Assembly: GCA_019236975.1 (NCBI GenBank)
Contig: JAFAHZ010000050.1
Span: forward strand, 1 to 49,953
Length of the DNA stretch: 49,953 bases
Direction of reading: 5' to 3'
Source of the DNA: Vulcanimicrobiota bacterium
GTDB lineage: Bacteria > Vulcanimicrobiota > Vulcanimicrobiia > Vulcanimicrobiales > Vulcanimicrobiaceae
Of this stretch, positions 11,035-29,465 are shown in pieces. The notes below the pieces were generated by a model. That model saw nothing but the letters and a program-made list of their open reading frames with translations, was not told where the DNA came from and did no database searches. How positions within the stretch are numbered: position 1 is the first letter of the stretch; each line of letters opens with the position of its first letter. Made by a program: the position numbers and the translations under genes.

Positions 11035-11898
11035 ATGGCCGGCGATCTCCACCTCGTGGGGGATGCCGTTCCCTACACCTACATCGGCGACAGCCATGCA
11101 GGGTCGATCGGAACGCTCGTCTTCGAGGACGCGAACGAGACCACGCGCATCGTCACCCGCACGTGCACGATTTGGCGTTTCGTCGCGAGCGACGCGCTCG
11201 GTGCCGATGGGGCACTCGGTGACGAACTCGTACAAGCCTTACGAAACACGGGCGCGCTGCACACCTCGCAAGCGTTCGCGCCGCTGGCCGGATTTCGACC
11301 CGTCCAGACGACGTACGGCCGGGAGAAACGTCCTGAGAACGTCGCCGTCCTCGACTCGGCCAGCGAACGCGCCTACGTCGTTTGCGTCGGCGAGATCGAC
11401 ACGCGCTACATCTTGCACCGTTTCGTCCTCGAGCGTCTCGATTTTCAGGTTCCGTTCCCTATCGACGGCCTCGAAGCGCTGCCGGCCTTCCAGGCGCGGC
11501 AAACGCTTCGCGCCGACCGAATGCTCGCGTTCTTGGGTGAAGAATTCAAACCGCTTTTCGTCGGGCTGCGGCTGCTGCGCGCGGCCGGATTGAGAACGAT
11601 CTTTCTGCACTCGCTGCCTCCCCCGGCGATCGACGACGCCGACGCCGAGCGCGTTCTCAAGCATCCCAGCCCCGCGCGGTTGCGCTACAAGCTGGCGATG
11701 TTCGTGAACTTCCTCTACGAAGCGGTTTGCCGCGACATCGGCGTCGGCTTTATCAACATGTGGCCGAGCGTTACGAGCGCCAATCTCTTACGGCCGGAAT
11801 ACTACCTCGACGGGTTGCACCTCAATCGCGAACACGCAAAACGTTCCGTCGCGGAAGTGCATCGTCAGATGACGTCGCTGAGGGCGGCCGTTCCGTGA
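11035..11898 (+). CDS. SGNH/GDSL hydrolase-like protein
   Basis: This 287-residue cytoplasmic-looking protein has no signal peptide. The SGNH block I motif is visible as YIGDSHAGS, with Ser20 as probable nucleophile. The matching late block is YYLDGLHLNREHAKRS with its Asp-x-x-His pair. SGNH proteins of this kind act as carbohydrate O-acyl esterases or transferases, so a role in trimming or placing O-acyl groups on the island glycan is inferred. The ribosome-binding signal is weak (GAGGGGGA, 15 bases upstream). Its TGA overlaps the GTG of the following GSCFA gene, so the two are translated together. Confidence 0.65.
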   Translation: MAGDLHLVGDAVPYTYIGDSHAGSIGTLVFEDANETTRIVTRTCTIWRFVASDALGADGALGDELVQALRNTGALHTSQAFAPLAGFRPVQTTYGREKRPENVAVLDSASERAYVVCVGEIDTRYILHRFVLERLDFQVPFPIDGLEALPAFQARQTLRADRMLAFLGEEFKPLFVGLRLLRAAGLRTIFLHSLPPPAIDDADAERVLKHPSPARLRYKLAMFVNFLYEAVCRDIGVGFINMWPSVTSANLLRPEYYLDGLHLNREHAKRSVAEVHRQMTSLRAAVP

Positions 11899-12890
11899 GC
11901 CGCTTTCCCTACGATGACCGGCCGGATGCCGCGCTTTGGAAGCGCGCGATCCAAATGGTGGACGCCACCGAGATCGATCCCTGGGCGCCCGTCCGATTCA
12001 CGATCGATACTCGCGAACGCGTCGCTTCGGCCGGCAGCTGCTTTGCGCGGCATATCGCCGCGAACCTGAAGGCGCACGGCTTCAACTACTTTCAAACCGA
12101 AGAAGGCGCCGAATATTCCGCCAATTTCGGGAACGTCTACACGACGCTGCAGCTTTGGCAGCTCTTCGAGCGCGCCTACGGCCGATTCTCTCCCCAAGAG
12201 AAACACTGGCGGCGCGGCGATCGTTACGTCGACCCGCTACGACCGCGCGTGTTTCCCGACGGATTCGTATCGCCGGAGGCGGTGCACGAGGCCGAACGGC
12301 TGCATCTCGAAGCCGTCCGCCGCCTTTTCGAAGCGCTCGACGTCTTCGTCTTCACGTTAGGTCTCACCGAAGGTTTCGTGTCGACGATAGACGGCACGGC
12401 TTTTCCGGCTTGTCCGGGGAAGGATTTTGGCGTCTTCGACGCAGCGCGATACGCTTTTCGCAATCTGACGGTGGCGGAAAACGTCGAATACCTCGACGCT
12501 TTCGTCAGCGCTCTGCTGCACGTGAACCCATCGGCCCGCATTCTGCTCACCGTTTCACCGGTACCGCTCGTGGCGACGATGGAGAACCGCAGCGTTCTCC
12601 AATCCACGGTCTACTCCAAGTCGGTCCTCCGGGTATGTGCCGACGAACTCCGCCGCCGTCACCCCTGCGTCGACTACTTCTGGTCCTACGAGATCGTCAC
12701 CGCGACCTATAACAACGACCGCTACTTCGAACCCGACCGGCGCAGCGTCACCGAAGCCGGCGTCGCGCACGTGATGCGTTCGTTTTTTCGCCATTTCGCC
12801 AACCTCGAGATCGAGCGGCCGCAGGTCGACGATTTCGACCCGTGCGACGAGGACGTGCTCGACGCGATAATAAAAAAGGCTTCGCTGTGA
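11895..12890 (+). CDS. GSCFA-domain protein (SGNH-superfamily esterase-like)
   Basis: This 331-residue protein bears the name-giving motif at residues 47-51 (SAGSCFARHIAANL). It also has the later FTLGLTEGF and LTVSPVPLVATM segments and NNDRYFEPDRRSVTEAG typical of the family. GSCFA proteins are relatives of SGNH hydrolases and are often found in polysaccharide loci, but substrates are poorly known. The GTG start is fused to the previous stop (GTGA overlap). Two SGNH-type genes in tandem suggest two acyl-group chemistries or a heteromer. Function is inferred only at superfamily level. Confidence 0.8.
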   Translation: MSRFPYDDRPDAALWKRAIQMVDATEIDPWAPVRFTIDTRERVASAGSCFARHIAANLKAHGFNYFQTEEGAEYSANFGNVYTTLQLWQLFERAYGRFSPQEKHWRRGDRYVDPLRPRVFPDGFVSPEAVHEAERLHLEAVRRLFEALDVFVFTLGLTEGFVSTIDGTAFPACPGKDFGVFDAARYAFRNLTVAENVEYLDAFVSALLHVNPSARILLTVSPVPLVATMENRSVLQSTVYSKSVLRVCADELRRRHPCVDYFWSYEIVTATYNNDRYFEPDRRSVTEAGVAHVMRSFFRHFANLEIERPQVDDFDPCDEDVLDAIIKKASL

Positions 12891-12995: not shown

Positions 12996-13005
12996 GCCTT
13001 CAGAA

Positions 13006-13758
13006 ATGAAAGGCGTTATCCTAGCGGGTGGCTTAGGCACGCGGCTGCGACCCCTCACGAAGGTCACGAACAAGCATCTGCTGCCGATCTACGACAAGCC
13101 GATGATTTATTATCCCATCGAAACGCTCTGTAAGGCGGGCATTCGAGATATCATGATCGTCACCGGCGGCAGCTCGGCCGGCGATTTTCTGCGGCTGCTC
13201 GGCAACGGCGCGGAATTCGGCCTGAAAGACATCTTTTACACCTACCAAGAGGGTGAAGGCGGCATCGCCGACGCGCTGCGCCTCTGCGAACATTTCGCCG
13301 AGGGCAGCCGCATCGCGGTGATCCTCGGGGACAATATCATTCAAGACGACATCTCGCCGTTCGTACGCAAATTCGAACGGCAGGATTCCGGCGCGCGCAT
13401 TTTGCTAAAGCACGTGGACGATCCGCAGCGGTTCGGCGTGCCCGAGCTCGACGGCGATCGCATCGTTCGCATCGACGAAAAACCCGCCGAGCCGAAAAGC
13501 AGTTACGCCGTCACCGGCATTTACATGTACGATCGCCGCGTCTTCGACTTCATTCGAAAACTAAAACCGTCCAATCGCGGCGAACTGGAGATCACGGACG
13601 TCAACAACGCCTACATTCGCGAGGGCGATCTCTTCTACGACGTGCTCGACGGCTGGTGGACGGATGCCGGCACCTTCGAGAGTCTCTTCCACGCGAACCA
13701 GCTGGTAGCGAGGTCTACGATTTCAGCAGCAGCTTCCGCCGCGTCGTCTCCTCGATAA
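13006..13758 (+). CDS. rfbA: glucose-1-phosphate thymidylyltransferase
   Basis: This enzyme makes dTDP-glucose from dTTP and glucose-1-phosphate, the substrate of RfbB. The 250-residue protein starts MKGVILAGGLGTRLRPLTKV, with the nucleotidyltransferase GGLGTRLRP loop at residues 8-16 and NKHLLPIYDKPMIYYPIETL. VILGDNIIQDD supplies the metal-binding Asp, and RIDEKPAEPKSSYAVTGIY follows. It is the short form, lacking the C-terminal extension of the roughly 290-residue enzymes. The last 15 or so residues (Ala/Ser-rich) are encoded in bases that also encode the end of cysNC on the other strand. The upstream extension of this frame runs through the repeat and is not believed. A GGAG lies 11 bases before the ATG. 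Confidence 0.93.
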   Translation: MKGVILAGGLGTRLRPLTKVTNKHLLPIYDKPMIYYPIETLCKAGIRDIMIVTGGSSAGDFLRLLGNGAEFGLKDIFYTYQEGEGGIADALRLCEHFAEGSRIAVILGDNIIQDDISPFVRKFERQDSGARILLKHVDDPQRFGVPELDGDRIVRIDEKPAEPKSSYAVTGIYMYDRRVFDFIRKLKPSNRGELEITDVNNAYIREGDLFYDVLDGWWTDAGTFESLFHANQLVARSTISAAASAASSPR

Positions 13759-15562
13759 ACTCCATCAACCGCGCCGCCGACTCGCCGATGCTCTCGCGAG
13801 TCGTATCGAGCATGAGATCGGGTTTTTCCGGAACGTCGTAAGGCGACGAGATGCCGGTGAAGCGTTGGATCTCGCCCAACCGCGCGCGCCGGTAGTGTCC
13901 TTTCACGTCGCGCCGCTCCGCCGTGGCGAGGTCGCACGAAACGTAGATTTCGTAGAAGGACTCCGGGTAAGCCGCGCGCGCCTTCTCCCGGTCCGCGGCA
14001 AACGGCGAAATGAGCGCGGAGATCACGACGAAGCCTGCGTCGGCGAGCACGCCGGCGACGGCAGCGGTACGGCGCACGTTCTCGGTGCGGTCCTCTTCCG
14101 AGAATCCGAGATCGACGTTGAGCGTCGTGCGCAGCGTATCCCCGTCGAGTACGTACACATGGGTGCCGCGATCGAACAGCATGCGCTGCACGGCCATGGC
14201 GACGGTCGATTTGCCGGCGCTCGGCAAACCCGTCAGCCAGAACACGCCGCCCGCGTGACCGTTGCGGCGAACGCGTTCCTCGCGATGCACCGACGAGATC
14301 TGCGCGACGACGTCCGTTGCACCTTCGGAACGGGGCCGCCCGATGACCGCGCGAACGCGTCCTCCGGCGACGACGTTCGTACCGTGCATCAAGACGAACT
14401 TGCCGATGCTGGTGTCGTCGAGATCGTCGTCGGCGGCGATGAGTTCGCGCGAGATCAGCGTCACCACCGCGACGTCGCTCTTACCGAGCGAATCGCTCGG
14501 CTTGCCTTCCAACGAATCCGGGTCGACGACCTCGTCGATGCGCTGCAGCGTGACGGGAACTTCCCGCGTGCCGATGCGCAGCCGCAGCGATTCGCCCGGT
14601 GCGACGGGTTCGCTGCCCAGCCAAACGACGGTTGCCTGGATTGCGTGGCCCATGCCCGGCGCGTCGCCCGCATAGCTCGCGACCGCACCCCGGTCGACAA
14701 ACACGCGCTCGTCGAGCGAAATCGCCACGACGTCGCCGGCGTGTGCTTCCGGCACTTCCTTCGGCCAGCGGTGGATTGCCGTGACGACGGCGTCGGTTTG
14801 CAGCGGCCAGAAGACGACGCGCTCGCCCGCGCGAAGCGTACCGCTTTCGATACGGCCGGCGATCAGACGATTGGTTCCGCGCCGATACACGTCTTGCACG
14901 ACGAAACGCAGCGGTCCGCCCGCGTGGAACGCGTGCGGCCTGAGTGCTTCGAGAGACTCGAGCAGCGTCGGACCTTTCCACCAGGGCCAGCGTTTGGCCG
15001 GCGCTGCGATGTTCTCGCCCTCGCGCGCCGCAACCGGAACGATGTCGATCGGCTTGATATCCAACTGCTCGAGAAACTGCCGCACTTCGGCCTTGCGCCG
15101 CGCGAACTCGGTTTCCGCGTCCGACGCTAAATCGAGTTTGTTGACCGCAACGAGCAGTTCTTTGAAGCCGAACCACTGCAGGAACAGCGCTTGACGGCGC
15201 GTCTGCAGCGTGATGCCTTCGTCCACCGCAACCACTAAAATCGCGGCGTCGACTTCGGAGGCTCCGGTCAGGAGATTGCGGATGAGTTCGCGATGGCCTG
15301 GAGCATCCACGAATACGTAATCGCGCTCGGGCATGCGCAGCCAAATCCGCGAGATGTCGAGGGTGATGGCTTGGTCGCGCTCGAGTTGGAAGGCGTCGAG
15401 CAAGAACGAGTACTCGATCGGCACGCCGCGCTTCGAGCTGGAGCTTTCCAGCTCCGCAAGCCTTTGCGGTGTGACCTGACCGAGATCGACCAGCATCCTT
15501 CCGAGAATCGTCGACTTACCGGCGTCGACGTCACCTACCATAACGATGCGAACTTGGCGCAT
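13715..15562 (-). CDS. cysNC: bifunctional sulfate adenylyltransferase subunit 1 / adenylylsulfate kinase
   Basis: The N-terminal half is the GTPase subunit that drives ATP sulfurylase; the C-terminal half phosphorylates APS to PAPS. The protein is 615 residues. The CysN part (1 to about 420) has the P-loop GDVDAGKST (10-18), FVDAPGHRELIRN and NKLDLASD. The CysC part (about 438-615) has its own P-loop GLPSAGKST (445-453), DGDTLRTTLN and ISALISPFAADR. The same fusion occurs as NodQ, which feeds PAPS to a sulfotransferase. The start overlaps the cysD stop by one base, and the 3' end overlaps rfbA by 44 bases, convergently. No cysH, cysI or cysJ is nearby, which favours sulfation over assimilation. 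Confidence 0.95.
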   Translation of the reverse strand: MRQVRIVMVGDVDAGKSTILGRMLVDLGQVTPQRLAELESSSSKRGVPIEYSFLLDAFQLERDQAITLDISRIWLRMPERDYVFVDAPGHRELIRNLLTGASEVDAAILVVAVDEGITLQTRRQALFLQWFGFKELLVAVNKLDLASDAETEFARRKAEVRQFLEQLDIKPIDIVPVAAREGENIAAPAKRWPWWKGPTLLESLEALRPHAFHAGGPLRFVVQDVYRRGTNRLIAGRIESGTLRAGERVVFWPLQTDAVVTAIHRWPKEVPEAHAGDVVAISLDERVFVDRGAVASYAGDAPGMGHAIQATVVWLGSEPVAPGESLRLRIGTREVPVTLQRIDEVVDPDSLEGKPSDSLGKSDVAVVTLISRELIAADDDLDDTSIGKFVLMHGTNVVAGGRVRAVIGRPRSEGATDVVAQISSVHREERVRRNGHAGGVFWLTGLPSAGKSTVAMAVQRMLFDRGTHVYVLDGDTLRTTLNVDLGFSEEDRTENVRRTAAVAGVLADAGFVVISALISPFAADREKARAAYPESFYEIYVSCDLATAERRDVKGHYRRARLGEIQRFTGISSPYDVPEKPDLMLDTTRESIGESAARLMEFIEETTRRKLLLKS

Positions 15563-16371
15563 TACATGTATCCCGTCGTGCGCAGGCGCTCGAATGCGTC
15601 TTCGCTTTCGTGATCCATCGCGCGGCCGGCACGTTCGGGCTCGCGCGTCTTCTCCAGCTCCGCGATCACGTCGTCGAGAGTCTCCGCGTCGCTTGGAATG
15701 GGCGTCGTGATATTGCTCTCACCGAGCGAGCGGTACCGCATGCCGTTACGTGCGAGGTACAGCGGCACGTACGGAATATTTTCGCGACGCGTGTAGCGCC
15801 AGATATCGAGCTCGGTCCAATGCAGCAGCGGATGGATTCGCACGTGCGCGCCGTCGGGCACTTCGTACGGAAAGAAATCCCACAGCTCCGGCGGCTGCGT
15901 CCGCGGGTCCCAGGAACCGTCGGCGTTGCGCGGGCTAAAGATGCGCTCTTTCGCGCGGATCGCTTGCTCGTCGCGGCGGATGCCTAAGATGATACCGCGA
16001 TACGATTCGCGCGAGATCAGCGCGCGAAGGCCGGCCGTCTTGCGCGCGGCGTGGCGAGCCGCGGGCGGCAGCGTCGGATCGACGGTGTTTTCGGGAGGAC
16101 ACACCTCGTTATGCGCGGGGAGCTTCCAATCGCGGACGAGCTGATCGCGAAACGCGTAGACTTCAGGGAACTCCATCCCGGTGTCGAGGAGCACCACCGG
16201 GAACGGAACGTCGCCCAAGAACGCCTTGCGAACCATCCAGAGCAGCGCCGTCGAATCCTTTCCGATCGACCAGAGCATAGCAAGCGGCGAAACGCACGAA
16301 AACGCCTCGCGTAAAATATAGATCGTACGCGACTCCAGCGCGTCGAGATCAGAATCGGTCGCCGTGAGCAT
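15562..16371 (-). CDS. cysD: sulfate adenylyltransferase subunit 2
   Basis: This is the catalytic PP-loop subunit that forms APS from ATP and sulfate, working with CysN. The 269-residue protein has WSIGKDSTALLWMV (PP-loop, residues about 34-47), VVLLDTGMEFPEVYAFRD, GIRRDEQAIRAKERIFSPR and the late RYRSLGESNITTPI, all diagnostic of CysD/NodP. It is translated just before cysNC (TAATG overlap). The 72 bases separating it from the divergent aminotransferase gene probably hold both promoters. I see only a poor GATAAT there. Confidence 0.95.
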   Translation of the reverse strand: MLTATDSDLDALESRTIYILREAFSCVSPLAMLWSIGKDSTALLWMVRKAFLGDVPFPVVLLDTGMEFPEVYAFRDQLVRDWKLPAHNEVCPPENTVDPTLPPAARHAARKTAGLRALISRESYRGIILGIRRDEQAIRAKERIFSPRNADGSWDPRTQPPELWDFFPYEVPDGAHVRIHPLLHWTELDIWRYTRRENIPYVPLYLARNGMRYRSLGESNITTPIPSDAETLDDVIAELEKTREPERAGRAMDHESEDAFERLRTTGYM

Positions 16372-16443: not shown

Positions 16444-17589
16444 ATGACGGTAGAAATGGCGCACGACAGGCATACCGAGACGATTCCCGTCATGCGGCCG
16501 CAGTTACCGGCCGCCGACCAGCTCGAGGCCTACCTGAGGCGCATCGACGCGACGCGCTATTACTCCAATCACGGGCCGCTCTTACGCGAGCTCGAGCGCC
16601 GGCTCGCGCTTCACTTTCACGTCCAGCCCGCACAGTTGGCGGTGGTCGCCAACGGAACGGTCGCGCTCAGCGCAGCGCTGCTCGCGGTCGGCGCGCCTGC
16701 CGGAACGCGCTGTCTCCTCCCGTCGTGGACGTTCGTCGGTTCGGCCGCCGCCGTGTGGGCTGCGAATCTCACGCCGTACTTCGTCGACGTTTCGCCGCAA
16801 ACGTGGATGCTCGATCCGCTCGAGCTCGAGCGCCGCACCGATTTGGACGGCGTCGGCGCGGTCATGGTCGTCTCCGCGTTCGGCGCGCCGGTCGATACGG
16901 CGGCGTGGGACGCCTTTACGGAGCGAACGGCGATTCCGGTCATCATCGACTGTGCGGCCTCCTTCGATACCGTGACGTCGGTCGCGAGCGCACGGCCCGG
17001 AAAGTCGCCGATCATGATCAGCCTTCACGCGACCAAGGTTATCGGCACCGGCGAGGGCGGGTTGGTTCTTTCGACGGACGAGCGCGTGATGAACCGCTTT
17101 CATCGCATCTGCAACTTCGGCGTTTGGGATTCACCGGAAGGCCAGATTTTAGGCTACAACGGGAAGCTCAGCGAGTATCACGCTGCGGTAGGGTTGGCCG
17201 CTCTCGACGGATGGGAGCGCCGGCGCGAGTCGCTGGCGGCGCTGACGCGCCGCTATGCGACGGCGCTCGCGCAGCGAGGCGTCACAACGCTGCCGCACTA
17301 CGCAAACGGTTGGGTCTCGTGTTACTGCAACGTCGCCGTAGACGACGCGGCCGGAACGATCCTCCGCCTCGAAAAGGCCGGCATCGCGACGCGGCGCTGG
17401 TGGCAAAGCGGCGTGCATCGCCAGCGCGCCTATCGCCCGTTCGGCCGCGATGACCTTCCGGTAACCGACGATCTCGGCTCGCACGTCTTCGGCCTGCCGT
17501 TCTTTCACGACATGACCGACGCGCAGTTCGAGCGCGTGATGCGCAGTTTCGACGAGGCGCGCAGCGGTCTTCGTGCCGCGATGTTGTGA
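16444..17589 (+). CDS. DegT/DnrJ/EryC1-family sugar aminotransferase
   Basis: This 381-residue PLP enzyme is likely to aminate a nucleotide keto-sugar. Visible features are ANGTVALSAALLA (phosphate-binding loop), IIDCAASFD with Asp169, and ISLHATKVIGTGEGG with the Schiff-base Lys198. The GYNGKLSEYHAAVGL and NVAVDD segments of the family are also present. The obvious substrate is the dTDP-4-keto-6-deoxyglucose made by RfbA/RfbB, giving a 3- or 4-amino-6-deoxyhexose; position and stereochemistry cannot be read from sequence. Its last bases (TTGTGA) overlap the GTG of the WbqC-like gene. It heads the plus-strand aminotransferase-WbqC-ACP-SDR-acyltransferase run. Confidence 0.9.
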   Translation: MTVEMAHDRHTETIPVMRPQLPAADQLEAYLRRIDATRYYSNHGPLLRELERRLALHFHVQPAQLAVVANGTVALSAALLAVGAPAGTRCLLPSWTFVGSAAAVWAANLTPYFVDVSPQTWMLDPLELERRTDLDGVGAVMVVSAFGAPVDTAAWDAFTERTAIPVIIDCAASFDTVTSVASARPGKSPIMISLHATKVIGTGEGGLVLSTDERVMNRFHRICNFGVWDSPEGQILGYNGKLSEYHAAVGLAALDGWERRRESLAALTRRYATALAQRGVTTLPHYANGWVSCYCNVAVDDAAGTILRLEKAGIATRRWWQSGVHRQRAYRPFGRDDLPVTDDLGSHVFGLPFFHDMTDAQFERVMRSFDEARSGLRAAML

Positions 17590-18260
17590 CGACCGTCGCG
17601 GTCATTCAGCCGTACTTCGTCCCCTACGCCGGCTATTTCCGCCTCTTCACCGCCGCGGACACCGTGGTGATGTTCGATTGCGTGCAGTTTCCCCGGCGCG
17701 GATGGGTCCATCGCAATCGTTTTGAAACGAGCACCGGCGAGTTGGCGTGGCTGACGCTGCCGCTCGAAAAAGCCGCGCGCGACGTGCGTATCGCCGATCT
17801 AAGGTTCGTACCGGATGCGCGAGAACGGCTCGGAGCGCAGATGCATCGCTTTCCGCAACTCGACCGCGCCAAACGATCGCAGCACCCGCTGATCGACGGC
17901 GTTCTCCATCTGGGCGGACCGAGCGTCTCCGACTATCTCGTTCGGCTCATCGCCAAGATCGTCGCGCTTCTCGGTATGGAACGCCCGATCGTCCGGTCCA
18001 GCGCACTCGATTTGCCGGCCGAACTGCACGGCGAAGCGCGCGTCATCGCTGCGGTCAACGCGGTCGGCGGGCACCGTTACGTGAATCCTTCAGGTGGCCG
18101 CGAACTGTACCGCCAGGAATCTTTTGCTGCCGCCGGCCTCGAACTCGGTTTCCTCGATCCCTACGGCGGCAGTTACGCAAGCGTCCTTACGCGGCTCCTG
18201 GAGGAGGTACCGGCCGACGTCGCCGGCGAGATTCGTCGCGAAACGGTCGTTTCGCCGTGA
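17586..18260 (+). CDS. WbqC-like family protein
   Basis: This 224-residue protein carries the family N terminus, VAVIQPYFVPYAGYFRLF, followed by FDCVQFPRRGWVHRNRF and LTLPLEKAARDVRIADLRF. The late YVNPSGGRELY also fits. WbqC-like proteins occur in O-antigen and other glycan loci beside aminotransferases and ACPs. Their chemistry is not established; an acyl or aminoacyl transfer role has been suggested by context. The GTG start overlaps the aminotransferase stop, so the two are coupled. I am sure of the family, not of the function. Confidence 0.85.
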   Translation: MTTVAVIQPYFVPYAGYFRLFTAADTVVMFDCVQFPRRGWVHRNRFETSTGELAWLTLPLEKAARDVRIADLRFVPDARERLGAQMHRFPQLDRAKRSQHPLIDGVLHLGGPSVSDYLVRLIAKIVALLGMERPIVRSSALDLPAELHGEARVIAAVNAVGGHRYVNPSGGRELYRQESFAAAGLELGFLDPYGGSYASVLTRLLEEVPADVAGEIRRETVVSP

Positions 18261-18299
18261 AGGTCCGCACGGCGCGAGGACGGTATCGAATCGGCAATC

Positions 18300-18551
18300 A
18301 TGCAAGGTAACGCGGCGCCTTCGGATCGCCTCGCGCATATCGTCACGGACGTTCTTCGCGTGCCGCGCGACGGCATCGCCGACGACCTCGATATGGAAGC
18401 GACGAGCACCTGGGATTCGCTCAGTCACATGGAGCTCATCGCCGCCATCGAGGACGAGTTCGGCGTCGCGCTGACCGCCGACGAAATCGTTTCGATGCGC
18501 AGCCTCGGAGCGATCAAAGGCGTGCTCCGCGCGAAGTCGATCGCTCTTTAG
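18300..18551 (+). CDS. acyl carrier protein
   Basis: This 83-residue acidic protein is predicted to carry an acyl or aminoacyl group on phosphopantetheine. The attachment site is the classic DSL at residues 39-41 (TWDSLSHMELIAAIEDEFGV), Ser40 being modified. Length and helix pattern fit a free-standing carrier. It sits between the WbqC-like gene and an SDR gene whose ATG follows its stop directly. It is not beside fatty-acid synthesis genes, so it is probably dedicated to glycan decoration, loaded by the AMP ligase encoded about 1.4 kb away. Confidence 0.92.
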   Translation: MQGNAAPSDRLAHIVTDVLRVPRDGIADDLDMEATSTWDSLSHMELIAAIEDEFGVALTADEIVSMRSLGAIKGVLRAKSIAL

Positions 18552-19283
18552 ATGGATATCCCGGGGAGGACGATCGTCGTTGCCGGTGCGGCCGGGCATC
18601 TTGGCTCGGCAGTCGCCGCCGCCTTAACCGATCGCGGCGCCAACGTCGCCGGACTCGACCTGCGCGCTTCCGGAGAGGGAGGCCAGGTGTCGACCGTTCG
18701 CGCCGACGCCGCCGACGAAACGTCCGCCGTAGCAGCCGTCGACGAGATCGAGAAACGGTTCGGAACGATCGACGCGCTCGTGAACTGCAGCGGCCTCATT
18801 CATAGCGAACCGCTTGTGAATCTCACCAATCCCCAGCGCCGGCGCCACGGCATCCAGACGTGGGACGCCGTCATCCGCGCCAACCTTACCGCGGCTTTTG
18901 TGCTCGGATCGGTGGTCGCCGAACGCATGGCGGCCGCACGAACCAAGGGCGCGATCGTGCAATTTTCGTCGATCGCCGCCAACGGCAATCCGGGTCAAAC
19001 GGCCTATTCGGCGGCCAAGGCCGGGATCGAGGCGCTGACGCGCGTTTGGGCGCGAGAACTCGGTCCGCTCGGCATTCGCGTCGTCGCAATCGCTCCAGGA
19101 TTCGTCGATACGCCCTCCACGCGCGATGCCGTCAACGAAGCCGCACTCGGCGAACTCAAGCGAAAAACGCCGTTGCGCCGCTTAGCGGCGCCGGCCGAAG
19201 TCGCAAACGCGGTCCTCTTCGCGCTCGAGAGCGACTTCTTGACGGGCTGTACCTTGCACGTCGACGGAGGACTCGTCTTGTGA
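18552..19283 (+). CDS. short-chain dehydrogenase/reductase (3-oxoacyl-ACP reductase-like)
   Basis: This 243-residue classical SDR has the cofactor loop AGAAGHLG (about residues 11-18), NCSG in place of the usual NNAG, catalytic Ser139/140 in FSSIAANG, and Tyr152/Lys156 in AYSAAKAG. PGFVDTPS follows. Position directly after the ACP gene (no gap) suggests it reduces a carrier-bound 3-oxoacyl group. This recalls the reductase in the modified-viosamine genes of Pseudomonas syringae flagellin glycan. A nucleotide-sugar substrate cannot be excluded. Confidence 0.85.
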   Translation: MDIPGRTIVVAGAAGHLGSAVAAALTDRGANVAGLDLRASGEGGQVSTVRADAADETSAVAAVDEIEKRFGTIDALVNCSGLIHSEPLVNLTNPQRRRHGIQTWDAVIRANLTAAFVLGSVVAERMAAARTKGAIVQFSSIAANGNPGQTAYSAAKAGIEALTRVWARELGPLGIRVVAIAPGFVDTPSTRDAVNEAALGELKRKTPLRRLAAPAEVANAVLFALESDFLTGCTLHVDGGLVL

Positions 19284-19957
19284 ACGAGATCGTCATTTTT
19301 GGCGCGGGCAAAGTTGCCGACGTGGTGTATCATCATCTGCGCCGCTCCGACGAGTATAGCGTCGCGGCGTTCACCTGCGATCGCCCGTACCTGCCGGAAG
19401 GCGGACGTTTTAGGGACGTCCCCGTCGTCGCGTTCGACGAAGTGACCCACCGCTATCCGCCCGACCGGTTTTCGATGATCGTCGCGCTCGGCTATCACGA
19501 GCTCAACGCGCTGCGCCGTGCGAAGTACGAGGAGGCGAAAGCCAAAGGTTACCGCCTCGCCACCTACGTGAGTTCCGCGGCGCACGCGGGAGATTGGCTC
19601 GAGGCGGGCGACAACTGCATCGTCCTGGACGGCGCGATCCTCGAACCCGGAACGCGCCTAGGGAACAACGTCGTGGTTTGGAGCGGCGTCCTCGTCGGTC
19701 ACCACACGACGATCGACGATCACGCGTGGATTGCGGGACATGCGACGTTTGGCGGGAGCGCGCGCTTAGGTGCCGGGTCGTTCGTCGGTTTGGGCGCCGT
19801 CGTCGGGCACGAAGTCGAGATCGGCGAAAGCAGCTTCCTCGGCGCGGGCGTGCTCGTTACCAAATGCTGCGATCCCAAGAGCGTCTTCGTCGGTGCAAAT
19901 ACCGAGCTTTTCCGTCTCGATAGCGAACGCTTCCTGAGAATCTCGAAACTGCGTTAA
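19280..19957 (+). CDS. NeuD-like hexapeptide-repeat sugar acyltransferase
   Basis: This 225-residue protein has an N-terminal Rossmann-like segment (NEIVIFGAGKVADVVYHHL). A left-handed beta-helix of hexapeptide repeats follows (GNNVVVWSGVLVGHHTTIDDHAWI, then ARLGAGSFVGLGAVVGHEVEIGE; stretches run about residues 115-195). This layout is that of NeuD/PglD-type enzymes that acylate amino sugars or sialic-acid-like sugars from acyl-CoA or acyl-ACP. The GTG start overlaps the SDR stop by four bases. Here it is the best candidate to put the acyl group onto the amino sugar made by the aminotransferase. Confidence 0.8.
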   Translation: MNEIVIFGAGKVADVVYHHLRRSDEYSVAAFTCDRPYLPEGGRFRDVPVVAFDEVTHRYPPDRFSMIVALGYHELNALRRAKYEEAKAKGYRLATYVSSAAHAGDWLEAGDNCIVLDGAILEPGTRLGNNVVVWSGVLVGHHTTIDDHAWIAGHATFGGSARLGAGSFVGLGAVVGHEVEIGESSFLGAGVLVTKCCDPKSVFVGANTELFRLDSERFLRISKLR

Positions 19958-19977
19958 TCGCCGCGCCAGGGAAAACG

Positions 19978-21522
19978 TTACTCTGCCGCCAGTGCGACCC
20001 GGTCCACTTTTCCGTTGGCATTTTTCGGCAGCGATTCGCGAACTTCGAAGCGTTGTGGAATCATGTACGGTGGAAGCAGCGTCTCGAGTGCGAGCCGGGC
20101 GTCCGCTTCGGTGAGCGCGCGCTTCGTCGCGATGTAGGCTACCAGAATTTTGCGGTCTCGCCGGCCCGGCTTCTGAACCACGGCGGATTGACTTATCCCC
20201 TCGATGCGATTGAGCGCCGATTCGATCTCCTCGAGTTCGATCCGGTAGCCCATGTGCTTGATTTGATTGTCTTTGCGTCCGACGAAATCCAAAGATCGGC
20301 CGTCGTTTCCCAGACGCACCAGGTCGCCGGTTCGGTACATCCGCTCGCCGAAGCGATCGTTGAGCGGGTTCTGCACGAAGGCAGCCGCCGTGCGCTCGGC
20401 ATCGTTCAGGTAGCCGGCGCCGACCTGAGGACCGAGCAAACACAGCTCCCCAACCTCGCCCGGGCCGACCGGACGGCTGTCGTCGAGTACGAGCATCGCG
20501 AAATTCTCGGCAACCGGCCCGAGCGTCACCAGCCCTTCGGGCTCCGCCAAATCCGCTTCGGAAACGTCCCACGCCGAGCAGATGCACGTACATTCGGTCG
20601 GGCCGTACACGTTTACCAGCGTCGCGCGATCGGAAAACGCCGCGAAGAGCTTCCGTAACTCCGGCTTGGGATAACCCTCGCCGCCGAATACGAAGGCGCG
20701 AATCGCGGGCAGGCGGCGTGACTCGAGCACTTTCATCGTGCTCAAGTAAATCAGCAGCGACGGGACCGAAAACCATATCGTACAGCCTGCTTCCTCGACG
20801 GTGCGCAGGATCTCGCCTGCGTCGCCGAGCGTATCGCGCGCGACCGGCGCCAAGGCGGCCCCGTTGAGCAGTGCACCGTAGAAATCGAATACCGAGTTGT
20901 CGAAATACATCGGATTCACGTTCGTCAACGTGTCGCCGGCGGCAACTCCGAAACGAGCGGCGCACCAGGCGCCGAAGTTGAGAACGTTAGCGTGCGTCAT
21001 ACAGGCGCCCTTGGGCACGCCGGTCGACCCCGACGTATACATGACGTACGCGGGATCCGCACCGGTGACGTCCGCACATTGCGGCGGTTCGGCAGCGTCG
21101 AGCGATGCAATGTCGGCGATCGTCTCGGACCACTCGACGACGCCGGCACCGGAGGCCCTAACGGCGGTTCCGATTCCGGCGTCGAGCGAATCGCCGCACA
21201 CGATCTTAGGCCGCGCCGTCGAAAAAATGTGCGCCAGCCGCGCCGGTGGATTCTGGTCGTCGAGGTTGACGTACGCCGCGCCCAACTTGAGCGCAGCCAG
21301 CATTGCCGCGTAGCACTCCGCCGACTTCGTGTGAACGATGCCCACGACGTCGCGCAGGCCAACGCCGCGCTGCGACAGCAGCGCTGCGATACGGTTCGCA
21401 AGCGCGTTGAGCTCTCCGTAGGTCACGGCCTTCCCGCCGGGCATGCGCAGCGCCGGATTCCGCGGCGTGCGCGCCGCCAGCGCCGCAAACGCGAGTCCGG
21501 CGTTGTACCGGTAGTGCGTCAC
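19978..21522 (-). CDS. acyl/aminoacyl-AMP ligase (adenylation-domain enzyme, DltA-like architecture)
   Basis: This 514-residue stand-alone ANL enzyme would activate a carboxylic or amino acid as its adenylate and load a carrier protein. Core motifs are present: YVMYTSGSTGVPKG (A3), VNVYGPTEC (A5), MYRTGDLVRLGNDG (A7), FVGRKDNQIKHMGYRIEL (A8) and the A10 lysine (about Lys505) in NANGKVDR. The chosen GTG start overlaps the methyltransferase stop by four bases; upstream codons in that frame belong to the methyltransferase. It runs convergently to the ACP operon, 20 bases from its end. The substrate is unknown. Confidence 0.85.
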   Translation of the reverse strand: MTHYRYNAGLAFAALAARTPRNPALRMPGGKAVTYGELNALANRIAALLSQRGVGLRDVVGIVHTKSAECYAAMLAALKLGAAYVNLDDQNPPARLAHIFSTARPKIVCGDSLDAGIGTAVRASGAGVVEWSETIADIASLDAAEPPQCADVTGADPAYVMYTSGSTGVPKGACMTHANVLNFGAWCAARFGVAAGDTLTNVNPMYFDNSVFDFYGALLNGAALAPVARDTLGDAGEILRTVEEAGCTIWFSVPSLLIYLSTMKVLESRRLPAIRAFVFGGEGYPKPELRKLFAAFSDRATLVNVYGPTECTCICSAWDVSEADLAEPEGLVTLGPVAENFAMLVLDDSRPVGPGEVGELCLLGPQVGAGYLNDAERTAAAFVQNPLNDRFGERMYRTGDLVRLGNDGRSLDFVGRKDNQIKHMGYRIELEEIESALNRIEGISQSAVVQKPGRRDRKILVAYIATKRALTEADARLALETLLPPYMIPQRFEVRESLPKNANGKVDRVALAAE

Positions 21523-22529
21523 TCTTCCAAGTCGCGCCGGGCCGCTTCGCGCACCGCCTCGTCGAGCCACGCGTGCATACTGATGCCGCGCTTCTCTCGC
21601 GCGCGCTGCGCCAAACGCTTGGCTTCGAGCGTTACGCCTTCCAATTGACCGTGTGCGCGCGTGCGATGCGTTCCGCCTCGAACGCCCGGTATCGGAAGAT
21701 CGAAGTTTGCAGCCGGCTCGCCCTCGCCGACGGTAAAACTGATGAGATAAAAGGCACCTCCGAGAATGTATTCGATCGCGACTTCTCGCGCCGCAACGGG
21801 CATCTCCTCGAGCGGCAAACGCGCGCCGTAATGCGAGCTGGTCGCGATGAGCACCTTTCCGAAGTTCGTTTCGCGCAGCCACGGCGGCACCGACTCGTCG
21901 CCGACGACGACGCGCCCACCCGGGCGGACGACGCGAGCCATCTCCGATAAGCCGCGGCGAATGTCCGAGAACATGTTGAGGCCGCCGAAGTGGAACACGG
22001 CGTCGAAGGAGTCGTCGGCAAACGGCAAATAGATGCCGTTACTTATCAAGAAGGACAACGGTACCGCTTCACGCGAGAGTCGCTCTACGGCCTTTTGAAG
22101 GATGCCGCGCGAGATGTCGTGGACGTAGATGTGGCCGCGATCGCGCAGTTTTGCCGCAATCACCGCACTGGTACGGCCCGTACCCGCTCCGACCTCGAGA
22201 ACGCGCTGCCCCGGGACGAGCCTGAGGCGTTCCACCATGAGCTCGCGCGTCTGGCCTTCGTCGCAGCCGAATGTCTGGAACGTCAGCGGCAAATACTCGT
22301 CGTAAACCGAAGCCACGCTATCGTAGACGGTGCGAGCCGTCGCGTCTTCTCCGGCAAGGTCCGGAGGATACGTGAGATCTGGAATACCGTCGACTATCGG
22401 ATATCGCTCGCCGCCGGCCGTACGTAACTCGCCGCCGATAACGTCGTCGCCCGCGCTCTCGTGAATGTCCAGCGAGAGCGCTTCGCCGCTTGCAGGGCTG
22501 CGATACACGGCAGCGTCAGAAGCGCGCAT
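21519..22529 (-). CDS. SAM-dependent methyltransferase with degenerate Trm112-like N terminus
   Basis: This 336-residue protein has the class I SAM site VLEVGAGTGRTSAVIA near residues 110-125, then IYLPFADDSFDAVFHFGGLN and RVVRPGGRVVVGDE. The first 65 residues (SPASGEALSLDI, then GERYPIVDGIPDLTYPP) resemble the small zinc-binding Trm112-like segment often fused to such enzymes. However, the usual cysteines are absent. It is co-translated with the AMP ligase, so it may methylate the acyl group, the acylated sugar or the ligase substrate. The 87-base gap to the divergent gene holds no feature I can name. Confidence 0.8.
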   Translation of the reverse strand: MRASDAAVYRSPASGEALSLDIHESAGDDVIGGELRTAGGERYPIVDGIPDLTYPPDLAGEDATARTVYDSVASVYDEYLPLTFQTFGCDEGQTRELMVERLRLVPGQRVLEVGAGTGRTSAVIAAKLRDRGHIYVHDISRGILQKAVERLSREAVPLSFLISNGIYLPFADDSFDAVFHFGGLNMFSDIRRGLSEMARVVRPGGRVVVGDESVPPWLRETNFGKVLIATSSHYGARLPLEEMPVAAREVAIEYILGGAFYLISFTVGEGEPAANFDLPIPGVRGGTHRTRAHGQLEGVTLEAKRLAQRAREKRGISMHAWLDEAVREAARRDLEE

Positions 22530-22616: not shown

Positions 22617-23687
22617 ATGGCGACGCTCATCTTTCCAGCCGTGAACCGGCCGGCGCTTGCGTATCGGGACGAAGCCGCGCAGCGCGGCGAAGCGATCGTA
22701 GCGGCATCCTCGGTTTACGATGCAGGAATGGAGTCGGCATTCGGCCATCTCGTCGTCCTTCCATACGTCTACGATTCCGCCTTTCACGACGCGTTCTCGC
22801 AACTGCTGGCATCGCGCGACATCGACCGCGTCTACGCACCGGTGGCGAGCGTCCACGCGTTCCTTCAGGTGTACTTCGCGCGCGAAGGCCTGCCGGTCAA
22901 GCTGGTTGGCGCGTCGCCCATCGCAGTACAAGTCGCCGCATATCGCGAGCTTCTGGCACGAGCTGCCGCGCTGCGTCCGTCCGCGGCTGCCTGTTCGTCT
23001 CGGCCGGCGGACGTACCGTCCGTGCTCGAAATCGCCGCAATTCTCAAGCACGCCGAAGACATTTACGGCGAATCCAACGACGAGAAGCTCGTCGCCATCG
23101 CGGGCATCTTTCCCGAGGTTCCCAAAGGGGACGTGATCGAGATCGGATCGCTGATGGGAAGATCCGCGTTCGTCCTGCAGTATCTCGCTCGCCGCTACGA
23201 TACCGGTGCGGTACTCTCGGTGGACCCGCTCGCACCCGAAGCGTCGTTCCAGCACGACATTCCGGGCGACGTGCAGAGCACGATGGACGATCAGTGGGAC
23301 TACGACGTGCTCCGCCGCGCGTTCGTCGTCAATACGCTTCCCACGGCGGCCGGACGATTCAACTATCTTCGCGCGACCTCCGCCGACGGCGTTCGCATCT
23401 ACGAATCGACCCGAACCGTGCGCACGCCCGAGTTCGGCGAAGTCCATTACGAAGGCACAATCGCGGTCATTCACATCGACGGAAATCACGACTACGCGCA
23501 CGTAAAAGAAGATTGCGACCTTTGGCTGCCCGCCTTACGGCCGGGCGGGTGGCTCGTTTTGGACGACTACGTGTGGGCCCATGGGGATGGACCTTATCGC
23601 GTCGGAAATGCGCTGCTCGAGAGCCGCGGCAAGGAGATCCGGCGAGCGTTCCTGTGCGGGAAGGCGCTCTTCGTTCAGTTTACGTAG
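22617..23687 (+). CDS. class I SAM-dependent methyltransferase with extra N-terminal domain
   Basis: This is a 356-residue protein. Residues about 150-350 form a methyltransferase of the Methyltransf_24 type: GDVIEIGSLMGRSAFVLQYL (SAM loop), SVDPLAPEAS, then IAVIHIDGNHDYAHVKEDCD and GGWLVLDDYVW (metal-type Asp/Asn/His cluster). The first 140 residues are unrecognised and contain a Rossmann-like hint (VYAPVASVHAFLQVYF). The AAGG two bases before the ATG is too close to be a good ribosome-binding site, so the start is uncertain. Its 3' end overlaps the glycosidase-like gene by 13 bases, convergently. Confidence 0.75.
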   Translation: MATLIFPAVNRPALAYRDEAAQRGEAIVAASSVYDAGMESAFGHLVVLPYVYDSAFHDAFSQLLASRDIDRVYAPVASVHAFLQVYFAREGLPVKLVGASPIAVQVAAYRELLARAAALRPSAAACSSRPADVPSVLEIAAILKHAEDIYGESNDEKLVAIAGIFPEVPKGDVIEIGSLMGRSAFVLQYLARRYDTGAVLSVDPLAPEASFQHDIPGDVQSTMDDQWDYDVLRRAFVVNTLPTAAGRFNYLRATSADGVRIYESTRTVRTPEFGEVHYEGTIAVIHIDGNHDYAHVKEDCDLWLPALRPGGWLVLDDYVWAHGDGPYRVGNALLESRGKEIRRAFLCGKALFVQFT

Positions 23688-24625
23688 AGCTCGGCGAATC
23701 CGAACCCGTCGCGCCCGAAATAGTTGCCGCTGTAAAACAGCAGCGTTCTTCCGTCCACGTCGACAACGCACGGATAGCACACCATCTCCGAATCCCATCC
23801 GTCCGGTGACGGGTCGAGCCGTCCCGCGTCGTCGTCACGATGCCAGCGAATCAAGTCGTCGGACCAAGCGTAGCCGATTCGATAACCTCGCCGAGCGTTG
23901 CGAAAATCGACGCCGCAGCGATAGCAGAACCACATGTGATAGCGATCGCCCAAGCGTAGGACCGAAGGACTCGTTTGGCACTCGAACTCGACGGCCGCAT
24001 CCAAAAGGGGAACGCCGTCGCGGGACCATTCGATCCCGTCGACCGACGTTGCATGGGCGATCGTGTAAATGGACTCGATCGAGTCGCCCTGCGGAATCCA
24101 TGCCGAACCGGTGCTGTACCACATGTGAAAGCGACTGCCGATCTTTACGACCGACGGACTGTTCTGAATGAATGGCTCGGAAGGCGTTCGCGTGAGAACC
24201 GGGCCCCGGCCGTAACGCTCGAAATGCGTTCCGCCGTCGCGACTGCGGGCCAGCCCGACCGCGTGATGGTACGGGACCCCTTCACAGCGAGCCCATCCGA
24301 CGTAATACAACCAGACCTCGCCGTTGTGGTGAAGAACGCTGCTGGCCATCGCGCCGAACTGATCGAACGTCCCGGGATCGCCGAGCTGCAGCACGGGGGC
24401 GTCCGCCACCGCGATCACGGCGGCCGGGTCGTCCCGCCGCACGTCGACGTACGACGGATACGCCGCAACCTTTCCTTCGGCGTCTTTGATCGACCGCGCG
24501 TTGAAGAAGACGCGCAGCCGATCCTCCAGGACGAGGACCGACGGATTTTGCGCGTGACTCTGCATCCACGGATACTCGCCGCTCGGCGCAAAGATTCGGC
24601 CGCGCTTCTCCCAGCGAAACGTCAT
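23675..24625 (-). CDS. five-bladed beta-propeller glycosidase-like protein (GH43/GH32/GH68/GH130-type fold)
   Basis: This 316-residue protein has no signal peptide. Repeated blade-like units carry GEVWLYYVGWA, NSPSVVKIGSRFHMWYST, TSPSVLRLGDRYHMWFCYR and VDVDGRTLLFYSGNYFG, the recurring WYxG/SPSV pattern of five-bladed propeller glycosidases and related sugar-active proteins. Such cytoplasmic proteins are frequent in glycan loci, often with unknown activity. The ATG (MTFRWEKRGRIFAPSGEYPW) overlaps the GNAT stop by four bases, so the two form a pair. Confidence 0.75.
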   Translation of the reverse strand: MTFRWEKRGRIFAPSGEYPWMQSHAQNPSVLVLEDRLRVFFNARSIKDAEGKVAAYPSYVDVRRDDPAAVIAVADAPVLQLGDPGTFDQFGAMASSVLHHNGEVWLYYVGWARCEGVPYHHAVGLARSRDGGTHFERYGRGPVLTRTPSEPFIQNSPSVVKIGSRFHMWYSTGSAWIPQGDSIESIYTIAHATSVDGIEWSRDGVPLLDAAVEFECQTSPSVLRLGDRYHMWFCYRCGVDFRNARRGYRIGYAWSDDLIRWHRDDDAGRLDPSPDGWDSEMVCYPCVVDVDGRTLLFYSGNYFGRDGFGFAELYVN

Positions 24626-25185
24626 CGCGAACCCGGCTTCCAATCGTCGATCAAAAGCTCGTAATGGTTCATATCGTGCCAACGATCGTTCTTCTTGAAA
24701 AACCGGCGTTCGGTTCCGACGAAACGAAACCCCAATTTTTGAGGGATTCTCCCGCTTGCGGGGTTGGCACTCGTGTGTGATATCCGCAGGCGCTGCAGAC
24801 CGAGACGATCGAAGGCGCACGTCGCGACGGCCTCCGCTGCCTCCGTCGCGAGGCCCTCGCCTTGGCGCTGCGGCGTTATCCAATACGCGATTTCCGCGCG
24901 CTGCAGGGTCCAGGACCGGTGCGTTCGCTGCACGTCGATGAGCGAGACGATGCCGACTGCAGTGCCGTTCTGGAAAATCGTCCAATGATAGCCGGCATCC
25001 CTGGCTTGCGCCGAAGCGAGCCCCTCCAACACGCGCGCCGTCTCGGCCTCGTCGCTATGCGGATCCCACGTCAGAAACGCCGTTACTCGATCGTCGCTCA
25101 TCAGCGGGAAAAGCGCGGCGGCGTGTTCTTTCGCTGCCGGCACGAGTTCGAGCCGCGCCGTACGCAGGATCAGCTCGTTTTCCAT
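24622..25185 (-). CDS. GNAT-family N-acetyltransferase
   Basis: This 187-residue protein of the RimJ/RimL-like type starts MENELILRTARLELVPAAKE. The acetyl-CoA loop is present as YWITPQRQGEGLATEAAEAV, followed by LQRLRISHTSANPASGRIPQKLGF, which matches the usual C-terminal block. The start was chosen because upstream codons in the frame are Arg-rich and unconserved. It is paired with the propeller gene. It may acetylate an amino sugar or a protein N terminus; the sequence does not tell which. Confidence 0.85.
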   Translation of the reverse strand: MENELILRTARLELVPAAKEHAAALFPLMSDDRVTAFLTWDPHSDEAETARVLEGLASAQARDAGYHWTIFQNGTAVGIVSLIDVQRTHRSWTLQRAEIAYWITPQRQGEGLATEAAEAVATCAFDRLGLQRLRISHTSANPASGRIPQKLGFRFVGTERRFFKKNDRWHDMNHYELLIDDWKPGSR

Positions 25186-27695: not shown

Positions 27696-29465
27696 TTGAT
27701 AGGCATCTTTTTCGATCCCATCCGTTACCCCGAGGAGGCGTCGGCTTTATCGGCCTTTGCGGACGATCCGCAGCCGTGCGTCTTCGGCATCGACCTTTCC
27801 GCACCGGCGCAGGGTCTTGCGGCCCTCATCGCCGCTCGCCGTGAGGGTAAAACGACGGCGATTCTGCCGCTGCTTGCCGAACCGTACGAAGCAACGCTTT
27901 CGACAATTCTGCAGACGATTGCGGGAACGGAGTCGCACGAAGACCGCGCAGCCCAGCTCGCCGCATTAAGCTCGGGTCAACTTCTCGTCAACGGAAAGCA
28001 GCCGCACGAACTCGCCGGCTACGCACAGGCGCATCTCGACGCGGCCGCTTTGGCGCTCCGTTTAGCGGACGTTGTCCTGGTGCAAGCGTTCGGCGAGCGG
28101 GATCGCTGGATGCGAGCTCTGGGGCGTCCGTTACGGCGTTACGCCGTGCTTCCCCCCGTTCCGGCGCGCGGCGACGGCCTCCGCCTCGACGAAACTGCGG
28201 TGACGATTTACGCGCCATCGACACCGCGCGCCGCGCTTGCTATCTACGAGTCGCTGCTAGCGGCCCGTCGCATCGAAACCGCGGTCGTGGCGGCGGAAAA
28301 CGCCGCCGATGCGCTGCAGACGCGCGTCGTCATCGCCCCGGAATGGCGCTGGCTGCGCGCGCGATCGCTGGCCGGCCGCGGTTATCACGTCGTCGCACCC
28401 AACGCGATGCGAGTCGACGAGTGCGACGAGCGGATCTTCGGGTACGCTCCCCCGGATTTGCGGGGGATGCTCGGCGCAGTCGACGCAGCGCTGACGGCTT
28501 CCGGCGGCCGCGAGCGGGTGACGACCGATCCGCAGGCACTCGCAGCCGCGCTCGCGCGCGATGCGGCGACGATCGCCGAGGGACCGGCGGTGTCGATCGT
28601 TATCCGAACGTTCGATCGCCCCGAACTGCTGCGGCGTGCCATCGAAAGCGTCGCCCGTCAGACGTACCGCAACGTCGAAATCGTCGTCGTCAATAACGGC
28701 GGTAACGACGTCTCCGATGTGGTCGCCGCTGCGGCCGGCGGCCGCCCGTTCCGTTACGAATGCCTGGCGGAATGCAAACACATTAGCGCCGCGTCAAATG
28801 CCGGAGCGCGCGCGGCGACGGGAGCTTACGTCGGCTATCTCGACGACGACGATCTGCTGTATGCCGACCATTGCGCGCGAGCGGTCGCTGCGATCGAACG
28901 GACGCAAGCCGACGTCGTTTTCACCACCTGTCTGGCCGAGTACGCACAGATGCACGGCGACGAAAAACGCGTCATCGGTTATCAGATCTACCTCGATCGC
29001 GACTTTCACCCCGACGATATTTTCGTCGCCAACCTTTCACCGATTCACACGATCGTGCACCGGCGCGACCTTTTCGACCGGTTCGGCTACTTCGACGAGG
29101 AGCTCCCGGTAACCGACGACTGGGAGTTGTGGCTGCGAGCGTCCGTGCGGGGCGCTCGGTTCGTGCGGGTCGATCGCGTCACGTGCGAGTATTCGTGGCG
29201 GTACGATCCGCTTCGCGGCAACATGACGATCGAGCATCAGTGGGACTTCGTGCGCGCCTACCGGACGATAGCGGAGCGTTACGCCGGCAGCGTCTCGGGA
29301 CGCACGAGCATTCTCACCGCGCAAGCCAACATGCTCGCCGATCAAGAGCGCCGCGCGCAAGACGCGGCCGATCCTTCTAAGCGCGCCGGCGTCGTCATCG
29401 GAGCGATGAGCAACGCGGTCGTCCCGGTCGCGCCGGCTCCCGAGAACGCCGGGAGCCGCACGTGA
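27696..29465 (+). CDS. two-domain glycosyltransferase, C-terminal GT2 family
   Basis: This 589-residue protein is a paralogue of the other two-domain transferase. It shares its N-terminal pattern (LLVNGKQPHELAGYAQAHLD, RLADVVLVQAFGERDRW) and the GT2 half from about residue 300: VSIVIRTFDRPELLRRAIES, VVVNNGGNDV, SNAGARAATGAYVGYLDDDD and VTDDWELWLRASVRG. The only in-frame start at this edge is a TTG (MIGIFFDPIRYPEEAS) with no clear ribosome-binding site; the 58-base divergent gap carries the promoters. The stop overlaps the sulfotransferase GTG by four bases. Confidence 0.8.
   Translation: MIGIFFDPIRYPEEASALSAFADDPQPCVFGIDLSAPAQGLAALIAARREGKTTAILPLLAEPYEATLSTILQTIAGTESHEDRAAQLAALSSGQLLVNGKQPHELAGYAQAHLDAAALALRLADVVLVQAFGERDRWMRALGRPLRRYAVLPPVPARGDGLRLDETAVTIYAPSTPRAALAIYESLLAARRIETAVVAAENAADALQTRVVIAPEWRWLRARSLAGRGYHVVAPNAMRVDECDERIFGYAPPDLRGMLGAVDAALTASGGRERVTTDPQALAAALARDAATIAEGPAVSIVIRTFDRPELLRRAIESVARQTYRNVEIVVVNNGGNDVSDVVAAAAGGRPFRYECLAECKHISAASNAGARAATGAYVGYLDDDDLLYADHCARAVAAIERTQADVVFTTCLAEYAQMHGDEKRVIGYQIYLDRDFHPDDIFVANLSPIHTIVHRRDLFDRFGYFDEELPVTDDWELWLRASVRGARFVRVDRVTCEYSWRYDPLRGNMTIEHQWDFVRAYRTIAERYAGSVSGRTSILTAQANMLADQERRAQDAADPSKRAGVVIGAMSNAVVPVAPAPENAGSRT

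Follow-up and report, generated by a model that had tools for sequence, protein, structure and literature searches.

A recurrent ligase, acyl carrier protein, reductase and NeuD cassette in a Vulcanimicrobiota flagellin glycosylation island, with a putative role in aminoacyl decoration of a 4-amino-4,6-dideoxyhexose

In Vibrio cholerae O1, the perosamine tetronate genes include a ligase, an acyl carrier protein (ACP) and an acyltransferase that work on a DegT-made 4-amino-4,6-dideoxyhexose. The viosamine island of Pseudomonas syringae (vioA, vioM, vioT, vioS, vioB, vioR and acp) serves the flagellin glycan (PMC3927599), and enterobacterial flagellin islands hold genes for a CaiC ligase, Acp, FabG, LuxE/LuxC and DegT, which their authors read as fatty-acid genes (PMC4875605). 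Because of the P. syringae and enterobacterial islands, ACP-dependent decoration of flagellin sugars can be regarded as known. Here we describe a gene cassette with comparable parts in a Vulcanimicrobiota bacterium. It lies in contig JAFAHZ010000050.1 of the draft assembly GCA_019236975.1, and we refer to this whole 49,953-base contig as the window. We read the locus, centered on positions 16444-22529, as a nucleotide-sugar decoration cassette in a flagellin glycosylation island that would carry out aminoacyl-ACP-dependent N-acylation of a dTDP-4-amino-4,6-dideoxyhexose, and we put the probability of this reading at about 0.62.

The seven genes that a first-pass annotation had assigned to this region were all found in place with the expected domains. 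On the plus strand, a run at 16444-19957 encodes a DegT/DesI-like sugar 4-aminotransferase (16444-17589; 195 bits to PF01041), a WbqC-family protein (17586-18260), a free ACP (18300-18551; 36.6 bits to PF00550), a FabG-like short-chain dehydrogenase/reductase (SDR; 18552-19283; 152.6 bits to PF13561) and a NeuD/PglD/VioB-like left-handed beta-helix acyltransferase (19280-19957). The earlier description of these genes as one overlapping run was almost exact, since DegT/WbqC and SDR/NeuD overlap by 4 bases and the ACP and SDR genes abut, and only WbqC and ACP are separated, by 39 nt; the NeuD-like gene has a GTG start inside the GTGA that it shares with the SDR gene. Two genes on the minus strand converge on this run: a predicted stand-alone amino-acid adenylating ligase (19978-21522), whose stop lies 20 bases past that of NeuD, and upstream of it a UbiE-type S-adenosylmethionine-dependent methyltransferase with a Trm112-like N-terminal domain (21519-22529; 74.5 bits to PF01209, Trm112 match at residues 8-57), whose stop is overlapped by the GTG start of the ligase. 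The active sites are conserved. The proposed carrier serine of the ACP, Ser40, lies in a W-D-S40 motif that is invariant in an alignment of six, the SDR triad (S139, Y152 and K156) and H143/H144 of the NeuD-like protein are likewise invariant, and the NeuD-like protein retains the histidine that aligns with that of PglB.

This set recurs in about 50 genomes. Alignment of the ligase, a search that is itself blind to neighboring genes, identified 80 loci in public genomes; 51 belong to one ligase clade, a single fully supported branch of the ligase tree that spans at least eight phyla, and 29 form an outgroup. We scored as full the 29 clade loci with ~9 kb on each side. The ACP, SDR and NeuD genes and a GH43-like propeller gene all lie within 10 kb of the ligase at 28 of these 29 full loci. 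The same four-gene core was found at 0 of the 29 outgroup ligases, a count in which divergent neighbors may be missed, the neighbor profiles having been trained on cassette members, and which includes one locus (L097) that is not a fair outgroup member because its sequence, although clade-like, is cut short at the edge of a contig and fell below the score limit. Within the same distance, DegT is present at 26, WbqC at 24 and the UbiE-type methyltransferase at 22 of the full loci. The observation that the first-pass annotation had named as refuting, the same genes apart from the aminotransferase in relatives, was thus not borne out. The SDR and ACP genes are adjacent in nearly every cassette, and the propeller gene is as constant as the ACP. 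A GNAT acetyltransferase, either of the window's family or of another, accompanies 33 of the 51 clade ligases. No close ligase was found in plasmid records.

In the window, the five-bladed GH43/GH130-like beta-propeller enzyme (23678-24625) and a RimJ/RimL-type GNAT acetyltransferase (24622-25185; PF13302), the latter an accessory gene, are both encoded on the minus strand just beyond the seven genes. A second accessory gene, for a methyltransferase of the Methyltransf_24 family (22617-23687, plus strand; PF13578), has homologs in only 4 cassettes. The first-pass annotation was right about its seven genes and drew the cassette too small, missing the propeller, the GNAT, RmlA/RmlB and the flagellar surroundings. 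The cassette is real and widespread, a ten-gene kit that includes the propeller and the GNAT.

Surface-polysaccharide loci are often shuffled, and the cassette could in principle consist of functionally unrelated genes that chance has brought together in a mobile region of this kind. The contrast of 28 of 29 with 0 of 29, found in several gene orders and eight phyla, refutes this in substance. Gene order varies among cassettes (ASLNMG, WMGNASL, LMGNAS and inverted forms), so the linkage reflects more than uninterrupted common descent. Between the window and the same-genus genome G073, nine cassette genes show nonsynonymous divergence (dN) of 0.12-0.24 and synonymous divergence (dS) of 0.9-2.5, and dN/dS ratios of ~0.1-0.17 indicate that they are under purifying selection, which also argues against chance association. 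We give that explanation next to no weight. Within the phylum of the window, the distinct WbqC subfamily is present in 6 of 149 genomes searched. Of the five genomes other than the window's own, four (G073, G062, G063 and G101) carry the rest of the set, which in G101 is rearranged and lacks the UbiE-type methyltransferase; G128 has WbqC, DegT and the propeller with no ligase nearby.

Loci of the same family show that the cassette has separable parts. Four sister loci (L039, L040, L042 and L043) contain DegT, NeuD, WbqC and the propeller without ligase, ACP, SDR or UbiE-type methyltransferase, and three of them also contain RmlA and RmlB. The set therefore splits into a sugar module (DegT, NeuD, WbqC and propeller) and an acyl module (ligase, ACP, SDR and methyltransferase). 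In G088 (L044:15900-17780), the acyl module seems to have been exchanged: a DegT 67% identical to that of the window is accompanied, next to RmlB, by an ACP and a distantly related ligase (22% identity). Sugar genes without acyl genes, together with paralogous ligases in Dlt-like and nonribosomal peptide synthetase (NRPS) loci, would also suit two independent systems, in which genes for an N-acetylated amino sugar sit beside Dlt-like aminoacyl or small-molecule genes serving another acceptor. We consider this improbable, given that NeuD and the propeller are present at 28 of the 29 full loci, where they are mixed in several arrangements with the genes for ACP, SDR and ligase, and that the window cassette showed neither an MBOAT nor any other enzyme dedicated to aminoacyl transfer.

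The surrounding genes point to a 4-amino-4,6-dideoxyhexose as the sugar. Upstream of the cassette on the plus strand are RmlB, a dTDP-glucose 4,6-dehydratase (10010-11014; PF16363/PF01370, with dTDP-glucose 4,6-dehydratases as best solved matches, E = 4e-105), and an RmlA-like glucose-1-phosphate thymidylyltransferase (13003-13758; 202 bits to PF00483 and 92% identical in G073). The best NCBIfam model for the window DegT is DesI (TIGR04427), a dTDP-4-dehydro-6-deoxyglucose aminotransferase. Aminotransferases from ten relatives in the two branches of the ligase clade were typed. The five of branch A are DesI-like (viosamine type; 165-502 bits), and those of branch B (Legionella, Roseibium, Neorhizobium, Thiocapsa and Dongia) score above the cut-offs for WecE, the dTDP-4-amino-4,6-dideoxygalactose (Fuc4N) transaminase. 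As the products of DesI and WecE are both 4-amino-4,6-dideoxyhexoses, the acyl module follows the type of sugar and not one epimer. Among the solved-structure matches of the NeuD-like protein are PglB, VioB and perosamine N-acetyltransferase. The idea of the first-pass annotation that an acyl group is activated on the free ACP and transferred to the nitrogen of an amino-6-deoxyhexose is well supported by the clade-specific co-occurrence, the flagellar context and the supply of dTDP-4-keto-6-deoxyglucose.

What the acyl group might be depends largely on the ligase. This protein scores 361.7 bits to the amino-acid adenylation model TIGR01733, above the cut-off of 317.4. Among curated families DltA comes second, at 287-297 bits and under its cut-offs of 476 and 560 (for TIGR01734, 287 bits against 559.85). 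The aspartate equivalent to Asp235 and the lysine of motif A10 are kept in all full-length clade members examined, although the motif used to find some of the loci itself includes this Asp. In known A domains this residue binds the alpha-amino group, and its retention favors an alpha-amino acid as substrate. The predicted specificity pocket is nearly invariant, reading DNFF-[V/I/S/T/A/L]-GVCIK in all but a few of the ~50 clade ligases (DNFFVGVCIK in the window); the seed motif NPMYFDN favors the D-N part of this code and leaves the other positions unbiased. The code resembles DGFFLGVVYK, an isoleucine code, but we base no claim on this resemblance. Most likely, judging from these signatures, the ligase activates an amino acid and loads it on the ACP. 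The window's own genome has one phosphopantetheinyl transferase and three carrier-protein matches, and no NRPS condensation domain was found in it.

Paralogs of the ligase occur in other settings. The window's genome encodes a second ligase of the same family on contig C219 (L201:1147-2784). In same-genus G073, a paralog belongs to a Dlt-like group with an MBOAT protein, a carrier protein and an SGNH-like protein (L200:7363-11708); to our knowledge, Dlt systems are not known in this phylum. In G123 (L202/L049), another is found with a class-III aminotransferase-condensation-adenylation-carrier protein, cupin-like proteins and a condensation-thioesterase protein, near polysaccharide export genes.

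An acyl group of the P. syringae type is the other chemistry to be weighed. In that case the ligase would stand in for the ketosynthase by charging the ACP with acetoacetate or a 3-hydroxy acid, reduction by the SDR would follow, NeuD would form an N-(3-hydroxyacyl)viosamine and the methyltransferase would O-methylate the product. The cassette matches VioA, VioB, VioR, ACP and VioM part for part (PMC3927599), and its SDR is FabG-like, has an intact triad and adjoins the ACP. However, the ligase scores above the threshold for amino-acid adenylation and retains the Asp that binds the amino group, its paralogs are in NRPS and Dlt-like loci, and a GNAT in 33 of the 51 cassettes suits a free amino group. 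We therefore regard a hydroxyacyl group as unlikely, while giving it some weight. The first-pass annotation had left open the choice between a hydroxyacyl and an aminoacyl group; the second is the better supported, the first less so.

The flagellar setting is the basis for the presumed acceptor. Genes for FliD, flagellin (FliC), FlgL and FlgK lie on the same contig at 34508-49048 with several glycosyltransferases in between. FliD, the flagellar cap (34505-36532; PF07195/PF02465), and flagellin, the likely glycan acceptor (43732-45039; PF00669/PF00700), are both encoded on the minus strand. Flagellar genes are also present at three other cassette loci (L047, L067 and L075); at L067 and L075, from the cultured species Massilia agrisoli and M. 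soli, the cassette adjoins a flagellin gene.

These observations suggest the following pathway. RmlA and RmlB would generate dTDP-4-keto-6-deoxyglucose, which the DesI/VioA-like DegT would aminate at C4 to form dTDP-4-amino-4,6-dideoxyglucose (viosamine). At the same time, the ligase would adenylate one particular alpha-amino acid and load it on the phosphopantetheine of the cassette ACP, where it could be tailored by the FabG-like SDR, by the methyltransferase and, in many relatives, also by an acetyltransferase. The NeuD-like acyltransferase would then move the tailored group to the 4-amino group of the sugar, and glycosyltransferases of the island would add this decorated sugar to the glycan of flagellin.

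Several points weigh against aminoacyl decoration of a flagellin sugar as set out here. The window DegT reaches 138 bits to DesI, far under the equivalog cut-off of 650, and the NeuD-like protein, at 154.7 bits to TIGR03570 (NeuD/PglB/VioB), falls marginally short of 160.8. The positions of the pocket code were mapped through alignment with a single GrsA segment. A plain amino acid leaves the near-constant presence of a FabG-like SDR in the cassettes unexplained, and a 3-oxoacyl group would suit this enzyme better; a beta-hydroxy amino acid would reconcile it with the Asp-bearing ligase, although this is speculation. Finally, the genes that accompany the cassette in G101 and in some other cases are of the O-antigen ABC-export type and not flagellar, so the final acceptor varies. 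At the G101 cassette (L036:6532-7467), an ABC export pair, a formyltransferase-like gene and a gene for a methyltransferase-like protein of the FkbM type take the place of flagellar genes.

WbqC and the propeller are the other two members of the sugar module. The window WbqC scores 126 bits to PF08889 (gathering cut-off of 21.3) and belongs to a separate, low-scoring subfamily. Its confident structural model (pLDDT 94.8) gave no fold match in the PDB at E ≤ 0.001, a sequence search against the PDB also gave no match, and the modeled protein is possibly a new fold. Weak fold matches had suggested a nucleotidyltransferase of the HIGH superfamily or a PanC-like ligase; profile-profile comparison with PanC and CoaD returned a probability of <1%, compared with 55% for the PanC-CoaD control, and this assignment was rejected. 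The propeller has a profile match to GH130 phosphorylases (E = 6e-17), and its fold matches GH130 and BT_0996 with E values down to 2.6e-14. A match to 9gph (E = 3e-10, TM of ~0.72) places it in the five-bladed, GH130-related fold, and its acidic residues are conserved. As the propeller goes with the sugar module, it may act in handling the sugar or in its transfer. Neither it nor WbqC matched a library of defense genes.

Other genes of the island may bear on the glycan. The sulfate-activation genes CysD and CysN/C lie between RmlA and DegT (13715-16371), and CysD/CysN are also found at four sister loci (L032, L039, L043 and L044). An open reading frame at 29462-30508, which has no Pfam hit, opens with HVGTHKTGTTS, a P-loop like those of sulfotransferases. 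Sulfation of the flagellin glycan is a possibility. A GSCFA-domain protein is encoded between RmlB and RmlA (11856-12890), within the glycosylation island. Directly downstream of flagellin, a family 2 glycosyltransferase domain is fused to TPR repeats (41640-43646), and this protein is a candidate flagellin glycosyltransferase.

The first-pass annotation had suggested that the chemistry may be new. New chemistry as such is not supported, and neither is the O-methylation that it proposed; sets of CoA ligase, ACP and FabG are already described in the enterobacterial islands (PMC4875605). We found no description of the ligase-ACP-SDR-NeuD-WbqC set in the open-access papers searched, in which this clade of amino-acid ligases and its constant partner genes seem not to have been described. 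A broader proposal, which we hold only tentatively, is that the cassette represents a widespread and so far undescribed tRNA-independent route by which one defined amino acid is attached as an amide to dTDP-4-amino-4,6-dideoxyhexoses in flagellin and O-antigen systems, with WbqC as an enzyme whose fold is absent from the PDB and a propeller that acts on or transfers the decorated sugar and does not degrade glycans. The pocket is nearly invariant in at least eight phyla, so a single substrate determination would annotate some fifty loci. WbqC and the GH130-like propeller gain a fixed pathway context for testing, and ACP-dependent acylation of surface sugars is extended to, probably, an amino acid.

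Several known systems resemble the cassette in part. The tetronate system of V. cholerae O1, compared here by the roles of its genes, differs in its hydroxy-acid group and its redox enzymes. DltA and DltC share the use of a stand-alone amino-acid adenylase and a free carrier protein, whereas the window cassette lacks an MBOAT protein, its ligase is under the DltA cut-offs and its presumed acceptor is a nucleotide sugar. The enterobacterial islands, compared by description only, likewise have ligase, ACP, FabG and DegT genes, but their ligases are described as fatty-acid-type CoA ligases and are accompanied by LuxC/LuxE. The P. syringae island shares with the cassette a sugar 4-aminotransferase, an ACP, a FabG-like reductase, a NeuD/VioB acyltransferase and a methyltransferase, as judged by protein family and published description. 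As the first-pass annotation had recognized, that island uses a ketosynthase, VioS, for its acyl group, and an adenylating ligase and WbqC are not listed there (PMC3927599). Its seven genes do not include a propeller either. No ketosynthase was found in the window, and three ketosynthase-III matches lie elsewhere in the genome. Among characterized systems, the island of P. syringae comes nearest to the cassette.

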